From Sulfurovum sp. FS08-3 (GTDB lineage: Bacteria; Campylobacterota; Campylobacteria; Campylobacterales; Sulfurovaceae), in the NCBI GenBank assembly GCA_000830175.1, contig JQIS01000010.1:62001-126000 (forward strand): a stretch of DNA of 64,000 nt, written 5' to 3'. The position numbers and the translations under genes are program-made. Each line of letters opens with the position of its first letter. Positions within the stretch are counted from its first letter, which is position 1. The notes under the pieces were generated by a model. It was not told where the DNA came from and searched no databases. It was given only the letters and a program-made list of their open reading frames with translations. Shown here in pieces: positions 4,482 through 53,384 of the stretch.

Positions 4482-5239
4482 TATTTGACCTCCGAGAGAA
4501 CAAGTGCGTTGGGAATTGAGAAGTAACCTGTGCGAATTTGTTTTTGCAAGGCATCAAAGAGTGCTACAATCTTTTGCACTTTGTCGCCATCTTCTTCCAA
4601 TTTGTAAGTATAGCCGTTACCCTCTTTGACGACATAACCTACTTGCTCATCGGGTGTTGCAAAGTAGAGTGCAATGGAACCTAGTTTGGCAACTTGAGCC
4701 ATTTTGGGTTCACCGTTAAGCTCAATGTTTTGTTTGAATAGACCAATCTCTTTGGTGATACGAAGTGCATCATCATAACTTGCCCATACCAATGATAGAG
4801 CTTTTTCTTGAGTAATCGCTCCCTCTTTGAGGTCGGTTTTGATTTTGGTAAGTGAAGCAAGTCGCTCTTGAACCTTGAAAGGGATACCTGCTTTAATCAG
4901 TGCTTCGAGTTTGGTGATAGCATCCGTTAAAACAGGTTGAAAATCTTGCGTAGAGCTACCCAATTTGACCAGTTGAGTATTGGTTTTTTCCAATTCAAGA
5001 TTGGTTAATTTTAATGTAGTCTCTTTTCTACCAATTTGTGCCTCAGTGTCGGCTACTTGCATCGCAATGGATTTCATTTGCGATTTGTAGTTCTCTTTGT
5101 TTTCATCAATCTTGGTATAAAGCCCCTCGACATCCGTTCGTAACTTCATAATAGAATCAACGATATTTTCACCGTAAAGGCTACTAGAAGATAGCAAAGC
5201 AAGAGCGGCTAAGATACTTTTATTGTATAGTTTAATCAC
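4481..5239 (-). CDS. DUF3450-family periplasmic protein
   Basis: About 252 residues when started at GTG 5239, which has GGGAG 8 bases upstream and puts a signal peptide at the N-terminus (hydrophobic ILAALALL, Ser-rich, cleavage near LYGE). A longer TTG start at 5311 would add residues without a signal-like layout, and it lies inside the repeated operator. The mature part begins with a coiled coil and ends in a beta-rich domain, as in DUF3450 proteins. Members of this family head TtpC/ExbB/ExbD/TonB/TPR operons. It is the first gene of the operon and sits just behind the tandem TAAC repeats. Confidence 0.82.
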   Translation of the reverse strand: MIKLYNKSILAALALLSSSSLYGENIVDSIMKLRTDVEGLYTKIDENKENYKSQMKSIAMQVADTEAQIGRKETTLKLTNLELEKTNTQLVKLGSSTQDFQPVLTDAITKLEALIKAGIPFKVQERLASLTKIKTDLKEGAITQEKALSLVWASYDDALRITKEIGLFKQNIELNGEPKMAQVAKLGSIALYFATPDEQVGYVVKEGNGYTYKLEEDGDKVQKIVALFDALQKQIRTGYFSIPNALVLSEVK

Positions 5240-5274
5240 TATAGGCTCCCATAAAAAAATTTTGCTAATCATAG

Positions 5275-5320
5275 TGACAAAAAATAACAGTTTGATAACA
5301 AAAGGTAACAAAGTGGTAAC
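5275..5320 (-). promoter_or_regulatory. Tandem ~10.5-bp direct repeats upstream of the TonB operon (candidate response-regulator operator)
   Basis: On the + strand, TGAC/TAAC(A) half-sites begin at 5275, 5285, 5296, 5306 and 5317, spaced 10 to 11 bases, so they fall on one face of the helix. Two carry the longer core GGTAACAAA. Such helically phased direct repeats are typical of OmpR/PhoB-family regulators. The array ends about 35 bases before the chosen GTG start of the DUF3450 gene. A matching array lies upstream of the beta-helix lipoprotein. Confidence 0.55.
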
Positions 5321-5363
5321 AAAATGATGGAGAAAGAGAGGAGCGAAATAAGAAAAAGGGCAA

Positions 5364-5387
5364 CAAGATAGGGAATTTCCTATCTTG
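5364..5387 (-). terminator. Probable intrinsic terminator after the beta-helix lipoprotein gene
   Basis: A perfect 9-bp inverted repeat (CAAGATAGG and CCTATCTTG) with a 6-base loop lies 17 bases beyond the lipoprotein stop. On the minus strand the hairpin is followed by a pyrimidine-rich run (TTGCCCTTTTTC). Confidence 0.6.
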
Positions 5388-5403
5388 CTAAAGAGTTAAT
5401 AAA

Positions 5404-7557
5404 CTATTTTGTGTTGCCTGTACCTGATGTGAATTTAGTTTCAACCAATGCTGTTTCAGCAGCATCTGCTTCAGTTTTTGCAACAATTTTTGGATTTGAC
5501 CCAGCTAATGTTACATTTGTGAAACTTGATTTAGTTTCATCAAAATCTCCACTTACTGCAATTGCACCTTTAGCTGTTGAGTTGTATGTGACTGTTACTG
5601 CTTCAAAGATACCGCCTACTGCTTCGCCATCACCTGCTTTAAAGTAAAGTCCACCTTCAGAGTCAGCAGAGTCAAGAGTAATGTTTACATTTCGATAAGT
5701 CGCTACCGTTGTACCAGACATTTCGATACCTGCTTTTTTACCATTTGTAATCATCAAGCCGTTTACAGCACCATTCCAACCGCTATCGGTATCAAATGAA
5801 TCATCTTGTGCACCATCAATTTTTACATTGGTAAGATTTACTGAACCACCCCAAATCTCAACACCATCATCACCTGAATGATTGACTAAGATGTTTGATA
5901 CAGTTGTGGCAGAACTTACACCAAAGAGTGAAAGACCGTTAATCTCTTTATCTTGCTCAACCGCAATACCTGTGTTGTTGATTACAACATAGTTTAATGA
6001 TCCAGAACTCTCTTTGCTTGTACCAGCTGTTGTTTTATCATCAACTTCATAAGCACCTGTTTGGTCGTTCGCATCATTACCTATAATACTAACACCACCC
6101 CATTGACCAGCAGCATCGCCTTCGCCATCAACTGCATCTTCAGATGTGAAAAGAATAGGTTTAGCAAAAGTACCTTCAGCTACCAATTTAGCACCTGAAT
6201 AGACGATTAACCATGCGTTTGTACCTGTACCACCAGCAACTACTGTTCCTGGCTCAACAGTCAATGTAGCTCCTGCCATTACTTCAACTTTACCACTGAG
6301 TACCCATGTTTTGTCTGCAGTAAGTGTCTTATCGGTTGTTATTTGACCAGAGATTGTCTCTTTGGTTGTTGGAGCTGTAGGGAGTACCATTTCTGTAGCT
6401 ACTGTATTGTTAGTACCTGTTTGGAATGCATTACCAACCAATGCCATCTCAGCAACATCAGCATCAGATTTTGCTACGATTGTTGGGTTAGAACCTGTCA
6501 ATGTTACATTTGTGAAGCTTGATTTAGTCTCATCAAAATCACCACTTACTGCAATTGCACCTTTAGCAGTTGCATTGTAGGCTACGGTTACTTTTTCAAA
6601 AGTACCACCTACTACTTCACCATCACCTGCTTTGAAGTAAAGACCACCCTCAGAATCTTCAGAAGAGAGTGTAATGCTTACGTTTTTGTAGGTAGCTGTT
6701 GTAGTACCTGACATTTCGATACCCGCTTTTTTACCGTTTGTGATTGTCAAACCATCTACTGTACCACTCCAACCGCTATCGGTATCAAATGAATCATCTT
6801 GTGCGCCATCAATCGTTACATTAGTAAGATTTACTGAACCACCCCAAATCTCAACACCGTCATCGCCTGAACGATTAACTGTAATATTTTCTACTGTTGT
6901 AGTATTGCTTACACCAAAGAGTGAAAGACCGTTAATCTCTTTATCTTGCTCAACCGCAACACCTGTGTTGTTGATAACAATGTGCTTTAATGAACCTGAA
7001 GTTGCTTTGCTTGTACCTGCTACTGTTACATCATCAACCTCATAAGCACCTGTTTGGTCGTTTGCGTCATTACCTACGATAGTAACACCACCCCATTGAC
7101 CAGCAGCTTCACCTTCGCCATCAAATGCATCTTCAGATGTAAAAGTAATTTTTTTATCTGCTGTACCTTCTGCCATCAAAGTAGCACCTGGGTAAACGAT
7201 CAACCATGCATTTGTACCTGTACCACCAACTACTGTTGTGCCTGGTTGAATTGTAAGTGTAGCACCTGCCATTACCTCAACTTTGCCATTAAGTACCCAA
7301 ACTTTATCAGCTGTTAGTGTTTTGTTTTCTGTGATTTGACCTGTGATTGTCTCTTTGCTTGGAGTTGCTGGAGTCTCAGGAGTTGTGTTGTTTGCCTCAG
7401 GAGTTGTTGGAGTTGTGTTGTTTGCCTCAGGAGTTGTTGGAGTTGTGTTGTTTGCCTCTGGTGTTGTTGCAGCTGGAGTAGATGAACCGCCTCCGCCTCC
7501 GCATGATGTGATAGTAAGAGCCGCTAAAGCCGAAAGTAATGCTACTGAGTATTTCAT
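5404..7557 (-). CDS. Beta-helix repeat lipoprotein with internal ~330-residue duplication
   Basis: A 717-residue surface or periplasmic lipoprotein. The N-terminus is a lipoprotein signal (TITSC, lipobox Cys followed by a Gly run), then a spacer of three TTPEANN repeats (about residues 32-62). Two near-identical modules follow, starting near residues 68 and 397. Each opens with KETI(T/S)GQIT and contains motifs such as AGATLT(I/V), GQWGGV, GDDGVEIWGGS and SGDFDETKSS, as expected of right-handed parallel beta-helices. The copies are also highly similar at DNA level, which points to a recent duplication or gene conversion. The upstream repeats match those of the TonB operon, so the two units may be co-regulated. 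The ligand is unknown. Confidence 0.75.
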   Translation of the reverse strand: MKYSVALLSALAALTITSCGGGGGSSTPAATTPEANNTTPTTPEANNTTPTTPEANNTTPETPATPSKETITGQITENKTLTADKVWVLNGKVEVMAGATLTIQPGTTVVGGTGTNAWLIVYPGATLMAEGTADKKITFTSEDAFDGEGEAAGQWGGVTIVGNDANDQTGAYEVDDVTVAGTSKATSGSLKHIVINNTGVAVEQDKEINGLSLFGVSNTTTVENITVNRSGDDGVEIWGGSVNLTNVTIDGAQDDSFDTDSGWSGTVDGLTITNGKKAGIEMSGTTTATYKNVSITLSSEDSEGGLYFKAGDGEVVGGTFEKVTVAYNATAKGAIAVSGDFDETKSSFTNVTLTGSNPTIVAKSDADVAEMALVGNAFQTGTNNTVATEMVLPTAPTTKETISGQITTDKTLTADKTWVLSGKVEVMAGATLTVEPGTVVAGGTGTNAWLIVYSGAKLVAEGTFAKPILFTSEDAVDGEGDAAGQWGGVSIIGNDANDQTGAYEVDDKTTAGTSKESSGSLNYVVINNTGIAVEQDKEINGLSLFGVSSATTVSNILVNHSGDDGVEIWGGSVNLTNVKIDGAQDDSFDTDSGWNGAVNGLMITNGKKAGIEMSGTTVATYRNVNITLDSADSEGGLYFKAGDGEAVGGIFEAVTVTYNSTAKGAIAVSGDFDETKSSFTNVTLAGSNPKIVAKTEADAAETALVETKFTSGTGNTK

Positions 7558-41983: not shown

Positions 41984-44900
41984 TTAATAATCTTCCATAA
42001 AGTTTCTTCGTTTTTCATTTTTAATCTTTGTTTCTATCTCTTTAATGATATTTTGTACTTTTAGTCTGTGTCGAATAAATGTCACCCCCGATAAAAGACT
42101 TTCAAAGGATTGAAGATACTCTTTGTATTGTTCTAAGCTTGGAACCATACTGTTGCCACGCCAACTCCAAGAATAGGGTTTATAAAAAACTTTATCAAAT
42201 AGTTCAAATGAGTCATTACACTCTAAAAAATATGGTATCCACTCTTTTTTTGCTCATATGGGTATTCATCAATAAACTTAAATATAAACTTGCTACGCTC
42301 TTCATCTGTAGCATACTTTTGGATAAGTTTTTTGATTGTTGTATTAACCTTTTCCTCGCCTATTTCTTTATCTTCAAAAAAGGATTTAAGCTCTTTACTA
42401 TCAATATAATGATTTTTTTGATAAATTTTAAAAAAAGTCTCTACTAATCTAAAGATAATACGCTCATAATCTTCTCTCTCCCAAATTATGGAAAATTCAC
42501 GATTAACACTGTGATTAGAAGATGAAAAGCCTTGTTTATCATAATGGTGATAGATGTAATCTTCAATAAATAAGTCATCCATAGTGAGTATTTTATTAAA
42601 AATAGTATAGTCATAATCACGATCATATTCGTGGTTCGCTGTATGTAAAAAATAGAGTTCTTTAAGTAAGTCGATATTATTTTCAAAATACATTTCTAAG
42701 TTTTTATAGATATTTGTATTTGGATTAAAGATACCACTTAATAGGCTAATAAAGCTTTCCTCTTCGTTCTTAATTCGCTTATATACAATATCAACAATCT
42801 CTTGAAATATCGTTGGTTTGATATGCATATATTTTTCAATGAAGTCAGAAGATGGAATATTAAGTATTGATTGTGTAGAACGATAAAAATCTAACAGTTG
42901 CTTGACTTCATATTCGCCTATTTGCTCTTGTGATAATAAATAAAAAAAGTTTAACAGAGATGCATCTTTGTTTTGGCAATCGTATTGATTGATAAGTTTA
43001 TAGGCTTCCTCTTTACCTAAAGTTTCTATTAAATGAAAAACATTGATATCAAGGGAGAGTTTGTTACCTGATTTTAAAGACTCTTTAATGACTTCAATAT
43101 ACAATTTTTGGTTATAAATTACGAGTTCACTAAGTGCATACTCTATATTATTTGTTCTTATTCTATCGTTTATTCTTATTGATAAATTCAAGAGATATTT
43201 CCAATCTTTAAATTTATACTCTTTAAAGAAACTCCATAATCTTCCTTTCAATTCTTCTTCAATAGCTTTCCGATCATGTTTTTCTTCTTCTTTTTCGAGA
43301 GCAATACTTACTTTATCTAAGAGCAATACTTTTTCAATTACATAATCTTTATGATTAAATATATTACGAATTTCTTGCTGATATTCCATCTTGCGGTTGT
43401 CCAAAAAATCTAAAAAGTGTTGCATGATTGAACACTCTTCATAATTAGTTATATCAAAAGTTGTTTGCATAAAATTGAGTATTTGTTCGCTATCCCATTG
43501 CTCTATCTCTGTAATACCAATATGAATACTTATTCCTTTGGGATATATTGAAATAAGTGTAAAAATATCATCTTTGTAGTTTTTCTTATCATACAACGAA
43601 AAGACTCTATCTAAAACAGTTTTGCGTAGTTCTTTTAATTCATCTGTTTGAGCAGGTTTATAGTGGATTGTTTGGATTGTATTTTTGTTCTTTTTTACTA
43701 GAGTATCTTGAAATTCTGTTTTTAGTAGCTCACTAGATACTCTAATAAAGAGTTTCGTTATTAAAATATTTTCTCCATTTTGAGTAAAATTCCATAAAGT
43801 ATCTATTAAGTGCTTCTCTTTTGAATATTCATAATGATGACTATCTTTCTTGTAGGTAAAATTTTTTGTTAAAATGCTAATAGTTGCAGATAACTGTAAA
43901 GGCTCTTTTTCTAAATATTTAATAATTAGTTCTATTGCAGATGAAATATTTTCATTATCATTGCCAAAAAAAGATAATATTTCTAAAATTTCATTATTTA
44001 AATAACTACTTTTATCTTTCCAAAAATCCAATGAATCTACGTCAACAACTTGCTGTTGCACTTTTTCTATTTTATCATTCACATAGACCAAGGTATCAGT
44101 TTTTTTCATAAACCAAAAGAGCCTTATAGCTTCTAATAAGTTTGTTTTATCGTTATAATATTTACTCCATAGGTTATCAATAGAGCTTTGTAGTACTTCT
44201 TTAATGGTATCATGGTTAAAAGTTTCAATAATTGGATTTAAAGTATCAATAAATCGTTGTTTGTATTTAGGAAAGAAGTTATCCAATAAAAGATAAAAAT
44301 TAATTTGCTTCTCCACAAACACAATTTTATAAAAAAGATAAGTAGATAAAATTTGGTCAGATACCTTTACAACTTCATTTTGGTACAAATCCACTATCTC
44401 TAAACGATTAAGTTTTACTACTTGCTCCCAAAAATCCTTGGAGGATATGCTAAAAACTTTTTCAATTAATTGCATCTGTTCGTCGTGAGATTTATCAACA
44501 GCTCTAAAAAATGAGATAACCGTAAGAGATACAACTTGATTATGGTTATTTAAAATATCTATATCATCTTTGACACTTTTAAAATACTCATCATATATTT
44601 TAGTAGCATCGTAGATTGATTTTAGACTTTTTGTCTCTTTAGCAACCCTAGCAGCCATTAAAGCAAGTCTTGGATTACCTTGAGAAACCCGCCAAATTTG
44701 TTCATGATAGTCAGGATTTTTGATTTGATATATATCTTCTACGAGACTTGTTATCTCTTTTTCGTCAAATGGTTTAAGTTCTATCTCTGCTTTACTAATA
44801 AGTGTGGGGATTTTATCAAAAGTTGCTTTTTGAGCATAATCTCTAACCGTAGCTACAATTTTAATTTGATGATTATTGATTTTGTGTTTATGATAATTTA

Positions 44901-45732
44901 AAATATAATCCAAAACTTGATAGACTCTATTAATATCATCAATCAAAATAAGATATTTTTTATCATCCCCAAAATAGGCTTTTATATCATCAAATAAATC
45001 CACACTTTTATTGAATATAGCTTTAAAAATATATTGATTGTTTTTAGCATAACTTTGGCACTCTTCTAATGCAAATTTTGTTTTGCCTACTCCTGCCTTT
45101 CCTGTTATAAAAAGTATTTGATTGCTATCTAGCAACTCATAGAATTGTTTTTTTTCATCCTCTCTAAATTTAAATTGATTATTTAGTTTCGTTGTATATC
45201 TGCTACTGTCATCATAAGTCTTTATAAAATCATCATAATCTAAAATTTGATTGGTATCGATTTCTATATTTAAAAAGTCTTTAGCTACTTTTGCATAGTT
45301 ATTATTAATATCAATGCTCATCATCGAATTTGTCAAAATTTCACATTGATTAACCCTATGCTCTTTGCATCTGTTTTGAAGAGTCTCTATATCGGATAGT
45401 TTCAAATTTCTGTTACAAGCCAATATAATTTTTTCTATTTGTGATACGGCTATGCCTGTCTTGGATTCATTAAAACATTTATCTAAATCTTCTAATAACT
45501 TCTCTAATATTCCCGTTTCTCTAGTTGTATATTCCATAAATAGATATTGACCATTGTCAAGTATAGCAAAACTATCAGGAGTACCAGTAGTTGATTTATC
45601 TTCTCCAAGCTTTGTCCCATTTGACTGTATTATATAACCATATTTTTTATTAAGATAGTTATCAACAAGTTTATGAAACTTAGTAGCATCCATTTCAATT
45701 AAAGTTTTTTCAATTTGGTTGATTTTACTCAT
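41984..45732 (-). CDS. Nuclease-STAND NTPase (Avs-like, nSTAND3 type), interrupted by a -1 frameshift site
   Basis: The main frame (42223-45732) gives 1169 residues. An N-terminal PD-(D/E)XK-like domain has GTPDSFAI (Asp53) and FMEYTTRE (Glu68). A STAND NTPase follows, with Walker A GKAGVGKT (211-218) and Walker B ILIDDINRV (Asp265/266), then a long helical sensor region. The frame ends in TAG soon after CAA AAA AAG (42244-42252). In the -1 frame, reading on from the A7 run gives 86 more residues (EWIPYFLECND to NFMEDY, stop 41984-41986) with a strongly coding look (PYSWSWRGNSMVPSLEQY), which I judge to be the natural C-terminus. The slip site is a perfect A AAA AAG heptamer. Programmed frameshift, phase variation, decay and sequencing error are all possible. 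The remaining bases to 41842 hold nothing evident. Confidence 0.8.
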
Positions 45733-46576: not shown

Positions 46577-47680
46577 ATGTCCCACCGCACTATACCCCTC
46601 AAAATAGCACACGCCAAAGCCAAATTGATGCTTGATAATCCCTATTTTGGTTCTATTGTCTCTACATTGGAGCTTTGCCACGACTCCACACTTGCGACCT
46701 ACAAAGGTAAAGGTGCGAAACTTTTGTACAATGAGGAGTATATCAACACCCTTGAATACGAGGAGGTAGAGGCTCTTTTGGCGAGTGTGGCGACGCAAAG
46801 GGTACTACAACATCAACACCGAGCCTTCAAGGGCTACTCCAAAGTGTGGCAATTGGCTTCAGAGCTTGTAGCCAATGCGATAGTGGTGCAAAACGGCTTT
46901 GAGCTTCCTTTGGAGATGAGCTATCAAGATAGGTTTCGAGGGATGTATCTCGAAGAGGTCTATCGGGTATTGTGCGATGAGATGGAGGATGAGTATGTGC
47001 TAGATAATGAAGAGCAAATCATCCACGATGAGAGCCTCGATGAGGAGTTTTTGGAGCAACTCTACACAAAGTTTGAAGATACCTTAGCCTTGCCCAAAGA
47101 TTTACACTCTATCCTCAAACCACGCCAAAGCCACGCTATCAATTGGAGAGATAAGCTCTATCGACATATATCAGCGTACGACAAATCGCAATTTAGCTTC
47201 TTCCCGCCCAATCGAAAATATCTCTATCGTGGAGTCTATATCCCCTCTTTGAGCAGTGATTTGCTTAGCATCGTTGTGGCCATTGATACCTCTGCGTCGA
47301 TTGATGATGAGCTTTTGGCACTCTTTTTGGGTGAGATAGAAGCGATCATGCAAAACTACCCCCACTATCAAATCGACCTTATTCAAGCCGACCACAAAAT
47401 CCAATCGCACGAGGTCTTCACCACAGGCGAAACGCTTAGCTACACCATCAAAGGACGAGGAGCGACCCACTTCGCCCCCACCTTTGACTACATCGATGAG
47501 CATTTGGATACTCCTACACTTTTGCTATACTTTAGCGACGGCATGGGAGAGTTCCCACCCCATCAACCCCCCTACGATGTACTCTGGGTCTCCCCAAAAC
47601 CCATCAACGTACCCTTTGGGGAGAATATCGTGATGGAAACAAAAAAAGATACCAAAGCACCCCCAAAAGGGAGCTTTTAG
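46577..47680 (+). CDS. VWA-like domain protein (DUF2201) with degenerate peptidase motif
   Basis: A 367-residue protein. The N-terminal half is like the DUF2201 putative metallopeptidase domain, but the expected HExxH helix reads ATQRVLQHQHRAF, so metal binding looks lost. The C-terminal half is a VWA-like domain with SIVVAIDTSASIDDELL (MIDAS DxSxS) and LLYFSDGMGEFP. Such proteins normally pair with a MoxR ATPase. None is adjacent here, but one lies at 34871-35800. It is convergent with the lipoprotein gene (4-base overlap). Confidence 0.83.
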   Translation: MSHRTIPLKIAHAKAKLMLDNPYFGSIVSTLELCHDSTLATYKGKGAKLLYNEEYINTLEYEEVEALLASVATQRVLQHQHRAFKGYSKVWQLASELVANAIVVQNGFELPLEMSYQDRFRGMYLEEVYRVLCDEMEDEYVLDNEEQIIHDESLDEEFLEQLYTKFEDTLALPKDLHSILKPRQSHAINWRDKLYRHISAYDKSQFSFFPPNRKYLYRGVYIPSLSSDLLSIVVAIDTSASIDDELLALFLGEIEAIMQNYPHYQIDLIQADHKIQSHEVFTTGETLSYTIKGRGATHFAPTFDYIDEHLDTPTLLLYFSDGMGEFPPHQPPYDVLWVSPKPINVPFGENIVMETKKDTKAPPKGSF

Positions 47681-49653
47681 AGTCCAATCGTAATAGGTGT
47701 CGCAAACTCTTGGGGCATATCGGGGAGTTTGGGTTGGGGCAAGGTGATGGTTCGAGGCGTGGTTGTTTGGGTGACTCTATTGTCTTCTACACTAATGACC
47801 ACAGAGCTTTTTTGTACCACTTTGATCTCTATTTCAATCTTAATCTTGGCTATGGTTTTGACTCTATCGATGGTATCGTCTAGGGCAATATCTTGGCTTA
47901 TTGTTTGAGCTTCGTCGTAGGTTTGATCAAATTTTGTCGCCTCAAAGGAGTCGCTAAGATCAACAAAAAGCAACTCTAGCACCTTGATTTGGTTTTGCAA
48001 ATCGTTGATGCGTTGCATAAGGGTAGCGTAGAGTGCTTCACTGCTTTGTTTGGTTGTCTCATCAAAGGTTTTGATGTGGATGCTTAGCTTGATAGAGCTT
48101 ACGACTTTGGCAGAGGCGACGTATTGGACTCGCTCTTCGTGGCTAAGTTTTGTTTTTTTGGCTTTGAGGGTTACTTTGGTTTTGATGTGTGTTTTGAGCG
48201 TATCGATGAGTAGGTCATTTTTGACTACTGCTTCATTAGCCTCTTTGATTGCTGTTGGGGTGGTTTGATTGTTCTCTACCTTTTGGGCGATGTTTGAAGC
48301 CAAAGTATCGCTTAATTCATCATCAAGCTGGGTTGGAATCTCTCCCTCTTCGACTACCTTGGAGGCTATATCATCGGCACTCTTTTCAAGCTCATTTAAG
48401 CTACTCTCATCATCAAGCATCTCACCAACTTTATCATAATCCTCTAATCGAGCATTTTTGTAGATAAGCTTGACTAGCTTTTTGATTTTGAGCTTTTTAA
48501 TTGTTTGGTACTTTTTGGTTGATTGAACGACTTTGATTTTGAGTCTATCGACATCTTCGCTAAGGTTGGCTTTGATAATCTTGGCTACCAAATCAATAGT
48601 ATCACTATCACTGCTATTGAGGTCACTGCTATCAAGCATCGCTTGGATAGAACTCTCTAAGTTATCAACGATTAAAGCCAACTTTTCATTATCTAGCTCA
48701 TCACTACTACTCTCTTCAATGGCTCTGAGTAGCTCTTGGAGGGTTGCGTAGCTTGATACTACATCTTTTTGCTCTTCGTTGCTCATGGTAGCTTTTACTT
48801 GGATTTTGGTTACGACTTTGACTATCTGTTTTTTGACAATCTCTTGGGATAGTGCGAGTTTACTTACCTCTTGGTCTGAGATACCCTCAATCTCATCGAA
48901 GATATGGCTAAGGTTAAGGTCATCCATATCGACTCCCATATCTCCAATGCTTACTTTGATTTTCTTTTTGACCACCACTTTGGCAATGGCTTTGATAGAA
49001 ATGCTCTTATCCTCTACGGGCGTAATCTTGGCTAGTAGTGCAATCAAATTCCCCACACGATTAAGCGTATGGTGCTTTTGGGTATCTATCTTGCAAAGGC
49101 TTCGATTGTCATCTATGCCAAAGCTCTCTTTGACTTGCTCCTCTGCTTCTTCAAGTGGTATTGCACCCTCCTCGACAATATTTTGCACCAATGTCGTAGC
49201 GGGGTTTACAAATGCCATAGAGGTATTGCTATCGCTCTCTTCTCGTTCCACAATCGCCCCCATCTCAAAGCCTAGCTCCTCATCGTTGGCGTTGGCTTCG
49301 TGATCGACTCCTTTGTCTTTTCCGCCTGTGACTTTGAGCTTGTAGCGTTTGGGCAAATCGCTCACATTGGCTTCAAAGCTTCCGTTTGTATCGGTGGTAG
49401 TCGTAGCAAGAAGCGTATCGTTTATATCAAGTATCTCTACTACCGCTCCTGCAATCTCCCCATCGACCGCATTGCCCACGACTCTAAATTGAGCCTCGTT
49501 TTGGGCTAGGGTTTGGTTGTTGTCGGGTTGTTGGGCTGTGTTGTTGGTATCATTATTGACAAGAGGTGGTGTATTGACACAGCTATCACCCCCGCATCCT
49601 GCCATTATCAAACCTGTAACCGCAATGGCTACCAATGTACTTAATCTTCTCAT
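47677..49653 (-). CDS. Large lipoprotein with carboxypeptidase-regulatory-like domain
   Basis: A 658-residue lipoprotein (lipobox LIMAGC). A Cna-B/carboxypeptidase-regulatory-like module lies at about residues 55-115 (GAVVEILDINDTLL, then DTNGSFEANVSDL). After that comes a long Glu/Lys/Ser-rich helical region with many VKVVTKIQVK-like strands and helices. It is the last gene of a surface operon with two SLH-domain proteins. The function is unknown; an outer-membrane or surface scaffold is a reasonable guess. Confidence 0.65.
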   Translation of the reverse strand: MRRLSTLVAIAVTGLIMAGCGGDSCVNTPPLVNNDTNNTAQQPDNNQTLAQNEAQFRVVGNAVDGEIAGAVVEILDINDTLLATTTTDTNGSFEANVSDLPKRYKLKVTGGKDKGVDHEANANDEELGFEMGAIVEREESDSNTSMAFVNPATTLVQNIVEEGAIPLEEAEEQVKESFGIDDNRSLCKIDTQKHHTLNRVGNLIALLAKITPVEDKSISIKAIAKVVVKKKIKVSIGDMGVDMDDLNLSHIFDEIEGISDQEVSKLALSQEIVKKQIVKVVTKIQVKATMSNEEQKDVVSSYATLQELLRAIEESSSDELDNEKLALIVDNLESSIQAMLDSSDLNSSDSDTIDLVAKIIKANLSEDVDRLKIKVVQSTKKYQTIKKLKIKKLVKLIYKNARLEDYDKVGEMLDDESSLNELEKSADDIASKVVEEGEIPTQLDDELSDTLASNIAQKVENNQTTPTAIKEANEAVVKNDLLIDTLKTHIKTKVTLKAKKTKLSHEERVQYVASAKVVSSIKLSIHIKTFDETTKQSSEALYATLMQRINDLQNQIKVLELLFVDLSDSFEATKFDQTYDEAQTISQDIALDDTIDRVKTIAKIKIEIEIKVVQKSSVVISVEDNRVTQTTTPRTITLPQPKLPDMPQEFATPITIGL

Positions 49654-49656
49654 GGC

Positions 49657-51669
49657 TTACTCCTTTTCACACAATACAAAGTATCCATCGTTTTGATAGA
49701 TATTGCTAAAGCTCTCTAGTGTCTCGTGTACTCTATCGGGCATAAAGAGAGTGGGCATATCTCCCATTAGCTTAATGGCTGCAATCATCGTGTAGTTGGG
49801 TTGGCTACACTCCACGCCTGTAATGCTTAGCCCTATATTGTCCGCTCCGTGCATTGATAGGCTATTGCCGTAAATATGCGTCGCTTCTATGGGCGTATCA
49901 TCCCCTACATCGATCGTCGTATCCTCTGTAGCCCAAACAAGCACGGCTTTGTGCGGTGGGATACTCCCCTCTATGAGTCGATACTTGGCTTTGATTTGCT
50001 CTTGTACATCGGTGTGAGGAGAGTAGCCGTACCACTTAGCGTTATCGACTATCCAAATCGCATAGATTGCATCGCTTAGATTGTCAATCGCAATGTTTCC
50101 GCTAATGAGGCTTCGTCCTTTGGGGATAGCAATTTTATTTTCAATAGCCGTTATCACCTCACCGCTTCGCATCATCGCTATGACCTTGTCAATCTCGGCT
50201 TTGAGCCTATCGATAGCACTTTGTGAGTTGTCCTCATCTTGCTTGTAGCCATCAATCATCTTTTTAATATCATCAATCGCCTTTTTGATACCATCCGCCT
50301 CTTTTTTGAGTGCATCTTTTTCATCATTATCAGCGATAGTGTTATCGATAGCTTGTTTGATGTCATCGATTGACTTCTTGGCATCGTCAAGCTCTTTTTT
50401 GATTGCATCAAATTCTTGCTTTAATTTATCATTGGCTCTTAGATTGGTATTAAAATCAAGCAGGGCATCAAGTCGTTTTTTGATTGCTTCAAGTTTGGCA
50501 ATGGCATCTTTGATTTTGCTAATGATGGTTTCATTGGTAATCTTTTTGCCGTTGAGTCCATAGACAATCGTTTCGCCTTGGATAATCTCTCCTGCTTCAT
50601 TGATTGAGAGTGTTGTAACCATTACCTTGCCTAAGCTTGTAATTACGGCTAGTTTGATAGTAGTGGCTTTGCCATTGGGAATTGTGACACGCACTTTTTT
50701 GTATTTGTATATGCTCTTATCCTCAGCAGAGGTCAAATCACCAAACTCTACCCCATCGCCTCTCCACATCGTACCAAAGGACAATTCATGACTCTCCCCC
50801 TCTGTATCGATACAGCTTTGAGTGCCACCGCTTGTGAAGTATTCCAAATCCAAAATACGATTGTTGTTGCTATCTTGTGTATTATTTTCTACCTTTAGAT
50901 CCAAAGCAGGTGCAGTGGTATCAAAACATCGATAGGGTTCAAACCAATGCTCAAAACCACCTTGTGCTACTTCATTGACTGCTTCTGTGGTATCTTCATT
51001 GCTACTATTGCTCTCTTGGGTGGTGGTATTGTTTTGCTCATTTGTAGGCTCTTCCACTGTAGGCGTTTCATTTTCCTGAGTGGTTGGCTCTTCTACTTGC
51101 GGTTCTTCTGTTGCTGGTTGCTTATTGGGGTCGGCTTGTATCGTGCGTACCATATAGACAAAGTAGTCACGATTGATAGTCGCACTCGGTGCTAGTTTGA
51201 AGCCATAAAGCGACATTTTAGCCAAATAGCCATCATACCAATTGGTTGATGTTTCGCTATAGCTCTCATGGGTGAGAGTGCGAAGTATGAGCTTGGAAGC
51301 CTCTGCGAAATTGACACTATCAGCAGGTGAAAAACTACTACGATTTACCAATAAACCGCTATTTTTGCCATAACAGACATAGGGATTCATCCAATCACCA
51401 GTTGGCACATCATCAAAGCACTGCTCGGTCGTAGCAGGTGGATTAACCCCACTAGCCACAATTACCATCTTAAGAGCCTCTATGCGATTGGTCGCCCTAT
51501 AAGGCTCAAATGTATCTCTACAGCTAATCCACCCTTCATCACTCGCTACCAAAATATCACTCTTGTAGCTACTACCGTCAATATCGGTAAATGTTGTGCA
51601 TTCTGTAGCCAAAACCATGATTGGTAATAAAAGTATTACTAATGCAATTTTTAGTTTTTTAGTTATCAT
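49657..51669 (-). CDS. SLH-domain surface protein with coiled coil
   Basis: A 670-residue protein with a signal peptide (to about residue 21) and SLH-like repeats in residues 25-180 (TNRIEALKMVIVASGV; NFAEASKLILRTL; NRDYFVYMV). A Thr/Glu/Asn/Gln-rich linker follows (about 182-240), then a cysteine-bearing beta region, a coiled coil (about 385-505, repeated DDIKKxID patterns) and a C-terminal globular domain. It overlaps the upstream SLH gene by one base (TAATG). SLH domains usually anchor proteins to the cell wall or envelope. Their use in this phylum suggests an S-layer-like surface system. Confidence 0.75.
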   Translation of the reverse strand: MITKKLKIALVILLLPIMVLATECTTFTDIDGSSYKSDILVASDEGWISCRDTFEPYRATNRIEALKMVIVASGVNPPATTEQCFDDVPTGDWMNPYVCYGKNSGLLVNRSSFSPADSVNFAEASKLILRTLTHESYSETSTNWYDGYLAKMSLYGFKLAPSATINRDYFVYMVRTIQADPNKQPATEEPQVEEPTTQENETPTVEEPTNEQNNTTTQESNSSNEDTTEAVNEVAQGGFEHWFEPYRCFDTTAPALDLKVENNTQDSNNNRILDLEYFTSGGTQSCIDTEGESHELSFGTMWRGDGVEFGDLTSAEDKSIYKYKKVRVTIPNGKATTIKLAVITSLGKVMVTTLSINEAGEIIQGETIVYGLNGKKITNETIISKIKDAIAKLEAIKKRLDALLDFNTNLRANDKLKQEFDAIKKELDDAKKSIDDIKQAIDNTIADNDEKDALKKEADGIKKAIDDIKKMIDGYKQDEDNSQSAIDRLKAEIDKVIAMMRSGEVITAIENKIAIPKGRSLISGNIAIDNLSDAIYAIWIVDNAKWYGYSPHTDVQEQIKAKYRLIEGSIPPHKAVLVWATEDTTIDVGDDTPIEATHIYGNSLSMHGADNIGLSITGVECSQPNYTMIAAIKLMGDMPTLFMPDRVHETLESFSNIYQNDGYFVLCEKE

Positions 51670-53307
51670 TATTTTGCTCCTTTGCTACATTTACCAATGA
51701 CTTCTATCTGATTTGCATAAAATGAATATACCATCATTTTGCTAAGCTCGGCTCTATTGATTTTATTATAAGGTTTAAATTCTCCTCCAGGGTATCCATT
51801 TATTATTTCTCGCTCACATAAAAATAGAAGATTACTTTTTTCTACATCATTTAATTTTGATATATCTGTAAAAACTGTGCAAACTTTTTTCCGTTTCGTC
51901 TTCTCTAGCAATGGTTTTAATATATTAACAACTTCAATTCTTGTTATTGCTTCGTTGAAGAACCCTTCTTCATCCTTATGCTCGTCCCATATACTAATAT
52001 ATAAATAAGATCTTGCTTTGTTTAAATATTCTGCAAACCAAGTATCAAAGGTGAAAAATTTGTCATACTTATCTGTTGAGTTTCCAGTCACATCAATGTA
52101 AATTTTATTTAATATTTTAATAAATTCTGCACGTGTTATATCTTTATCAGGACCAAAGTATGAGTAATTTTCAAATTTATCTTGATAGCCATGAAGTATT
52201 TTATCCTCATATTCTTCTTCATGAAAATATAAATAGTTTATGTATCCAGTAAACCAGTCAGTTCTTAAAGTGTCAATAAATACAGGACCGCACCAATCTT
52301 TATAATTCAGGTCGATAAATTGATTTGCATAACTTTCTTTTGCCCAGTAACCATTTTTATTATCTAAATCAATATATATTGTTCTGCCAAATTCTTTTTC
52401 TTTTAAGTATTCTTGTAAATTATAAAATCGTGTTCCTTCATATACCGCTGTGCCTATATAGTCAACTGCTTTAGCATAAAATGCACCTTTATCAAGGTTT
52501 TTTGTGACTGCAAATCTTTTATCACCATTTAAAATCATTTCAGTTAAAGAACCAATTGCACTATAAATAACTTCATTCATTGTTTCGGTATTTTGTTTCA
52601 ATAGTGTCTCTTTAAAGTTTCTAAAAACCTCTGTTTTTATAAAAGTTTTTATTAAAGCTTCAAGCTGTCTTGCATTGACAGGATAATTTAATTTTTTTGT
52701 GAGATTTTTTTCCCCAAGAATTTTTACCGCTATTTCAATAGCCGATTCAAGCAAATTAGCTACTAGAGCATTTTCACTAATGTATGAAATTTTTAGTAGA
52801 TTATTTTCTGATGCCGTAGAAAAACTTATTGTAGTTTTTTTGTATGGAACAGTTCCTGTTATGTTTGTAGAGCCATATTGAATTGTATTAGATACTCTTT
52901 CATATTGATCTACAATAAAATAATAAGGCAATTTTCCATCCAAAATAGATGTTGGTATTGCTTCTGCTTTTGGAATTATATAAACTTCCTTGATTTCATC
53001 TTTGCCTATAACCTCAATTACCGCATTAAGATTACTATAGGTGAAAACAGAAAAAGAAACTTTTTTATTATCTTTTAGATTTTCAATTTTAAAATCTTCA
53101 ATTATTAAGCCAATAAACTTTTCAGTTGTTAAGCTATACATATTTTTTGTATAATATTCAACATCTTTATGTTCAATATTATCATATGGTTTATATGAGT
53201 CAAGTGATTCTATTTTTTTTAAATACAGTTTTATTTTCAGATAATAAAACTGTATTTAATGCAATCAAAACCAAAAAGCCCCTCAAAAGCCTAAACCTAT
53301 CTCTCAT
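51669..53307 (-). pseudogene. SLH-domain surface protein, frameshifted in a poly-A tract (possibly phase-variable)
   Basis: ATG 53307 (AAGGAG upstream) starts a signal peptide (LLRGFLVLIALNTVLLS), but the frame stops at TGA after an A8 run (53213-53220). Removing one A joins it to KKIESLDSYKPYDNIEHKDV and on without a stop through 490 further residues from the Met at 53141. The C-terminal third holds SLH repeats (ITRAEFIKILNKIYI; ITRIEVVNILKPLL; INRAELSKMMVYSF). It is more A+T-rich than the two genes after it. The frame change may be phase variation, transcriptional slippage, decay or a sequencing error. Confidence 0.7.
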
Positions 53308-53384
53308 AACGCACTCCTTAATATTTTTTACACAAACAAACCAAACACACAGGCACAGCAGGGATTTTAAACAAGCCTATTGTA

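Follow-up and report, generated by a model that had tools for sequence, protein, structure and literature searches.

Gene A and its two reading frames

The window analysed here is the whole stretch of 64,000 nucleotides from the sulfur-cycling bacterium Sulfurovum sp. FS08-3, and the locus under study consists of genes A, B and C on its minus strand (Table 1). Genes A and B share 1 nt, at the stop codon of the former and the ATG of the latter; a separate Shine-Dalgarno sequence, AAAGGAG (51683-51677), belongs to gene B.

Table 1. Features of the locus in the window and bodies found behind the shared leader in related genomes
Feature	Position	Strand	Basis or remark
Shine-Dalgarno sequence AAGGAG of gene A	53314..53319	-	read directly from sequence
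Signal-peptide ORF of gene A, 35 aa, TGA at 53202-53200	53200..53307	-	ATG 53307; N-terminus homologous to gene A starts of five relatives
Near-perfect palindrome, 41 nt, 20-nt arms, 95%	53219..53259	.	17-bp RNA stem, base running 2 nt into A8
A8 tract, position of the frame break	53213..53220	-	sequence, frame analysis and codon usage
Mature (cargo) frame of gene A, first ATG 53141 (490 aa)	51669..53212	-	frame and codon analysis
SLH domain, partial match	52119..52160	-	Pfam
SLH domain, best match (PF00395)	51744..51872	-	Pfam
Gene B, 670 aa: own signal peptide, ECTTF SLH-like N-terminus, coiled region, conserved C-terminus	49657..51669	-	sequence, ORFs, domain search
Gene C, 658 aa, lipoprotein-like, conserved in operon	47677..49653	-	ORFs, domain search, relatives
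Relative body: FAD oxidoreductase, three SLH matches	L049
Relative body: SLH-ended orphan	L048
Relative body: M23 peptidase and C-terminal AHH nuclease, 1945 aa	L029:6521-12355
Relative body: esterase-type protein	L028 (G002)
Relative body: TIG repeats	L050

Gene A is divided between two frames. The 35-codon ORF with which it opens (53307-53200, minus strand) contains a hydrophobic, signal-peptide-like stretch, and the frame of the mature protein, whose product we call the cargo, is +1 relative to it, so that the signal peptide does not stand in frame with the body as it should in an SLH surface protein. The mature frame is open from 53255, and its sole stop past 53258 is that at 51671-51669. 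The third frame is closed by TAG at 53212, directly behind A8, and joining the signal peptide to the cargo needs the loss of one A or the gain of two.

A preliminary description of this DNA had proposed an SLH surface gene switched off at A8, with a product ending at 35 residues and an open mature frame behind the tract; its coordinates, including those of the tract, and both of these features are confirmed by the sequence and the ORFs. It had also named additional disabling mutations downstream as an observation that would speak against it, and frame analysis down to 51669 reveals none in the mature frame.

Judged by stop codons alone, the break could sit anywhere from 53258 to 53202. Two codon-usage models were used, trained either on the window or on 464 kb of the genome comprising the window and a further 400 kb; in both, the coding signal of the mature frame sets in at 53219, where A8 has its edge. 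For the 24 codons that follow the tract, this frame gives +10.4 bits, against a mean of 9.1 bits and a minimum of 3.2 in the rest of it, and the other two frames give -16.0 and -37.6 bits. The signal extends 78 nt upstream of the internal ATG at 53141, and no Shine-Dalgarno sequence precedes this ATG.

The cargo begins with an orphan N-terminal part and carries its SLH repeats at the C-terminus, the two SLH stretches jointly exceeding the Pfam cut-off (41.7 bits vs. 20.8); SLH proteins act outside the cell. The gene forms an island of low GC content (24-30%), while windows over neighbouring genes mostly give 37-51%. We searched for relatives of the cargo in 99 genomes (the relatives search), 397 genomes of the phylum, all 175 genomes of the family, contigs of 84,980 species, plasmids and phages, and found none beyond the SLH repeats except a weak 75-residue match (E 5e-4, genome G371). 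A sequence search of the PDB with the cargo matched the SLH part only (best E 0.012), NCBIfam gave nothing, and SLH was the only Pfam family above the cut-off. The AlphaFold single-sequence model (mean pLDDT 33.3) was too poor for use.

The operon and its relatives

A relative of gene B is present in all five genomes of the genus examined, that of the window included; the named relatives are Sulfurovum, Sulfurovaceae and Campylobacteraceae metagenome assemblies, and the gene B N-terminus is matched in 8 of the 175 family genomes. Ahead of gene B, five relatives share a start and a signal peptide of the type RFR..KGFLFLILFLP, after which the bodies are unrelated (Table 1). The gene A start, AAGGAG followed by ATGARAGA..., recurs once in genome G001 and once in G002. 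Gene A is the exchangeable, body-swapping gene at the head of a surface-protein operon of the Sulfurovaceae, ahead of genes B and C, since the same leader precedes unrelated bodies in these five relatives.

In all five relatives, the leader is joined in frame to the body. Damage of other kinds occurs at these loci: gene A of G002 carries a stop and a frameshift further into the gene, and in G001 (contig C26) gene B is frameshifted and the preceding gene starts beside a transposase end. Reading frames resembling transposases occur in G002 (L028:10683-11300), upstream of where gene A sits, and in G001:C26 (L025:3347-3424), at the contig end; they end in the same C-terminal residues and are a possible agent of body swapping.

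The arrangement resembles that of polymorphic, cassette-swapped secreted proteins such as the polymorphic toxins (PMC3482391), in which a constant secretion-signal part is followed by unrelated bodies at one locus, and one relative ends in an AHH nuclease. That 1945-aa protein with M23 and AHH domains, at the operon position of gene A, is a polymorphic-toxin-like cargo in its own right. The cargo in the window does not qualify as a polymorphic secreted toxin: neither Pfam nor NCBIfam recognised a toxin domain in it, and no gene for immunity was found. Several bodies at the locus carry SLH repeats.

The A8 tract and the palindrome at the joint

By itself, A8 is not a credible switch; the real oddity of the locus is the joint between a hairpin and A8. 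The tract is ordinary for this genome: a 464-kb sample (~18% of the genome) contains 48 other A8 runs and 2 A9 runs within intact ORFs, and in a gene so rich in A, a Markov model gives a mean of 1.2 A8 per gene, with a fraction of 0.71 of simulated genes containing one. As in contingency genes, a change of one unit would restore the frame, but the tract is not of hypermutable length and does not stand out from coding sequence. Viral contigs, scanned by exact matching for versions of the tract with a different length, gave 0 matches.

Frame breaks at homopolymers are rare by comparison. At least three were recognised in the 464 kb, against 50 in-frame A8 or A9 runs within ORFs: A8 of gene A, A7 of a STAND-type gene, and G7 in the stretch L060. 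The survey yielded 28 candidates among 514 coding segments, of which 11 were inspected by eye, plus the A7 case; the candidates left out were mostly short segments or those at the edge of a fetched stretch, so that three is a lower bound.

The STAND-type NTPase gene (window positions 41984-45732, minus strand, 1169 aa, Pfam nSTAND3) seems to run on for ~88 codons in another frame. Its A7 junction (42251-42245) reads CAA AAA AAG, with no stable structure around it (z 0.19), and the heptamer A_AAA_AAG in it is known as a -1 ribosomal slippery site. The change at G7 (L060:18590-18645, corresponding to ~78590-78645 of G000:C62) marks a candidate G-tract phase-variable gene, with a membrane part in one frame and, in another, a continuation bearing a DMHIGG motif and phosphoesterase-like by eye. 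Elsewhere in the genome (L071:6008-6015 and 6092-6100, G000:C59), an intact ORF (5180-6133) contains G8 and A9 at a distance of ~80 nt from each other; both are possible contingency tracts.

What sets A8 of gene A apart is the palindrome immediately 5' of it. Its AU-rich RNA stem of 17 bp (-15.8 kcal/mol, z -7.6) abuts the tract and ends inside it. The inverted-repeat score is 17, compared with a null maximum of 13 in 600 simulated genes; no other inverted repeat in the window scores 12 or more, and the palindrome is the stronger of two scoring at least 13 in the 464-kb sample. The other one (L073:12573-12623) has a score of 14 and a 15-nt loop. Within the left arm of the palindrome, the signal peptide of the window's gene A leaves the family consensus (..LP.LV.G).

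The palindrome is absent from all 98 relatives among the 99 genomes searched, and none of the five gene A starts in the relatives has such a hairpin. We rejected two ordinary explanations of the structure. A repeated or mobile element would recur, whereas the exact arm and the palindrome occur only at this site in its own genome and the 99 genomes searched; a terminator is not supported, there being no T-run after it on either strand.

Origin of the break and possible expression of gene A

We tentatively read gene A as a real and recent OFF allele whose break is linked to the palindrome, rather than as a classical poly-A phase switch, and give this reading somewhat less than an even chance. 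It is the simplest one, and it fits the decay seen in gene A of G002 and in gene B of G001:C26. The palindrome and the frame break are probably linked, because one of very few such repeats falls on one of very few homopolymer breaks.

According to this reading, ribosomes starting at 53307, where the Shine-Dalgarno sequence is good, would reach a stop at 53200 after 35 codons, with no efficient initiation at 53141; the mature frame is otherwise undamaged. The likeliest cause would be a recent palindrome-linked mutation at the joint of signal peptide and cargo, either a template switch during replication, one arm being rewritten from the other with a shift of frame, or slippage at the adjoining A8. 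We infer in this way the mutational origin of the break, its recency and the lack of a product. A template switch is the probable origin: such an event can create a perfect hairpin stem in one step, as PMC8794818 describes, and it would account for three features together: the arms are perfect, the signal peptide deviates from consensus in the left arm, and the frame is lost. No close relative carries the cargo, so that the unbroken ancestor is not seen, which leaves the template switch an indirect conclusion. It should be noted that a recoded or phase-variable gene would equally be expected to keep its 490 codons intact behind the break.

Among mechanisms that would keep gene A in use, -1 ribosomal frameshifting at A8 is rejected, since it would run at once into the TAG at 53212. 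Slippage of RNA polymerase on the bare tract, which the preliminary description had suggested, does not suffice either, because slippage on homopolymers in E. coli and Buchnera is dominated by insertions in the account of PMC5574713, and PMC6260861 reports no deletions from its E. coli tests of poly(A) runs, while gene A needs one A fewer or two more.

Slippage assisted by the hairpin is rather unlikely but deserves more weight. The nascent 17-bp stem behind an RNA polymerase standing on A8 would melt the upstream edge of the RNA-DNA hybrid and push the RNA forward by one, giving transcripts that lack one A and encode the secreted SLH protein. The last pairs of the stem reach 2 nt into A8, and the loss of one nucleotide exactly joins the two frames. 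The layout is comparable to that of the Roseiflexus IS630 element (Penno et al. 2015, as described in PMC5009743), where an inverted repeat lies directly 5' of the slippage motif and the frame likewise needs transcripts minus one nucleotide. That case differs from gene A in several respects: it concerns a transposase, a U5C5 motif and a GC-rich 6-bp stem and was shown experimentally, whereas gene A encodes an SLH protein, has A8 and an AU-rich stem of 17 bp, and is known from sequence alone. In Citrobacter rodentium tssM1, too, a gene is interrupted near a poly-A run and its frame is restored in RNA, but there the run is A11, A's are inserted, and the word "hairpin" does not appear in the text (PMC4256274).

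The absence of the stem from the relatives, although conservation does not strictly define such systems, helps to keep the probability of this candidate mechanism low, and the cleavage site of the window's signal peptide, judged by eye, is weak. Stem-loop-mediated slippage has, to our knowledge, been documented in very few genes. Were it to operate here, gene A would be a cellular surface gene expressed only through hairpin-driven slippage, a fraction of its transcripts encoding the secreted SLH cargo, with a built-in RNA-level control of dose or bet-hedging at the cargo-swap joint; we regard such control as possible and, on balance, improbable.

Classical phase variation, in which replication slippage would alter the length of A8 among cells and switch the surface protein on and off, is quite unlikely. 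The homopolymer does sit exactly at the joint of signal peptide and body, and the mature frame is intact. A similar layout is reported in PMC9187656 for the pilin loci bbr_0113 and bbr_1889 of Bifidobacterium breve, where signal peptide and body lie in two ORFs that only a homopolymer indel joins and the second ORF has neither a Shine-Dalgarno sequence nor a signal peptide. Those G-tracts (G11, G12 at bbr_0113), as that source presents them, were shown to vary in the population as a replication-slippage switch, unlike the A8 and 17-bp hairpin of gene A, which are known from one sequence. Eight is also below the cut-off of at least 10 that PMC6321876 gives for phase-variable A/T tracts in Campylobacter surveys, and the Campylobacter switches covered in PMC8355987 rely on G/C tracts. 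The many A8 and A9 runs inside intact ORFs further argue that this genome does not handle A8 as a hot spot. Of the earlier proposal of an SLH surface gene switched off at A8, the SLH-type protein, the out-of-frame signal peptide and the OFF state as read are retained, and A8 as a switch in its own right is not. That proposal had no place for the palindrome fused to A8, for the operon with its swapped cargoes or for the orphan cargo of low GC content, all of which alter the interpretation.

An assembly or sequencing error, with a different true tract length and gene A simply intact, seems to us just as improbable. A homopolymer beside a strong hairpin is a hard template, and the breaks at A7 of the STAND-type gene and G7 of L060 occur in the same genome; however, homopolymer breaks are rare beside the in-frame runs, and no general homopolymer problem is apparent. 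Finally, expression of the body alone from an internal promoter, as an unsecreted 490-aa protein starting at 53141, is highly improbable: a promoter-like site (TTGACT, 16 nt, TAATAT with TG) does lie at 53203-53176, but nine such sites against 3.8 expected in this AT-rich stretch make one site mean little, the ATG has no Shine-Dalgarno sequence, the coding signal begins upstream of it, and an SLH protein would be out of place inside the cell.

Literature searches for Sulfurovum with S-layer homology and, separately, for Sulfurovum with phase variation found no paper in the collection consulted. If gene A is OFF, ribosomes would drop off the mRNA 1.5 kb ahead of gene B, and polarity could lower the expression of genes B and C as well. 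If the hairpin drives slippage, a chromosomal cargo gene, and not an insertion sequence, would use stem-loop-mediated RNA-polymerase slippage, for which AU stems and A-runs would suffice. If the palindrome is the scar of a template switch, it would provide a clear example of a single mutation silencing a surface gene that had been swapped in. In both cases, the locus presents an operon of Sulfurovaceae with SLH proteins in which signal peptides are shared and bodies are swapped.
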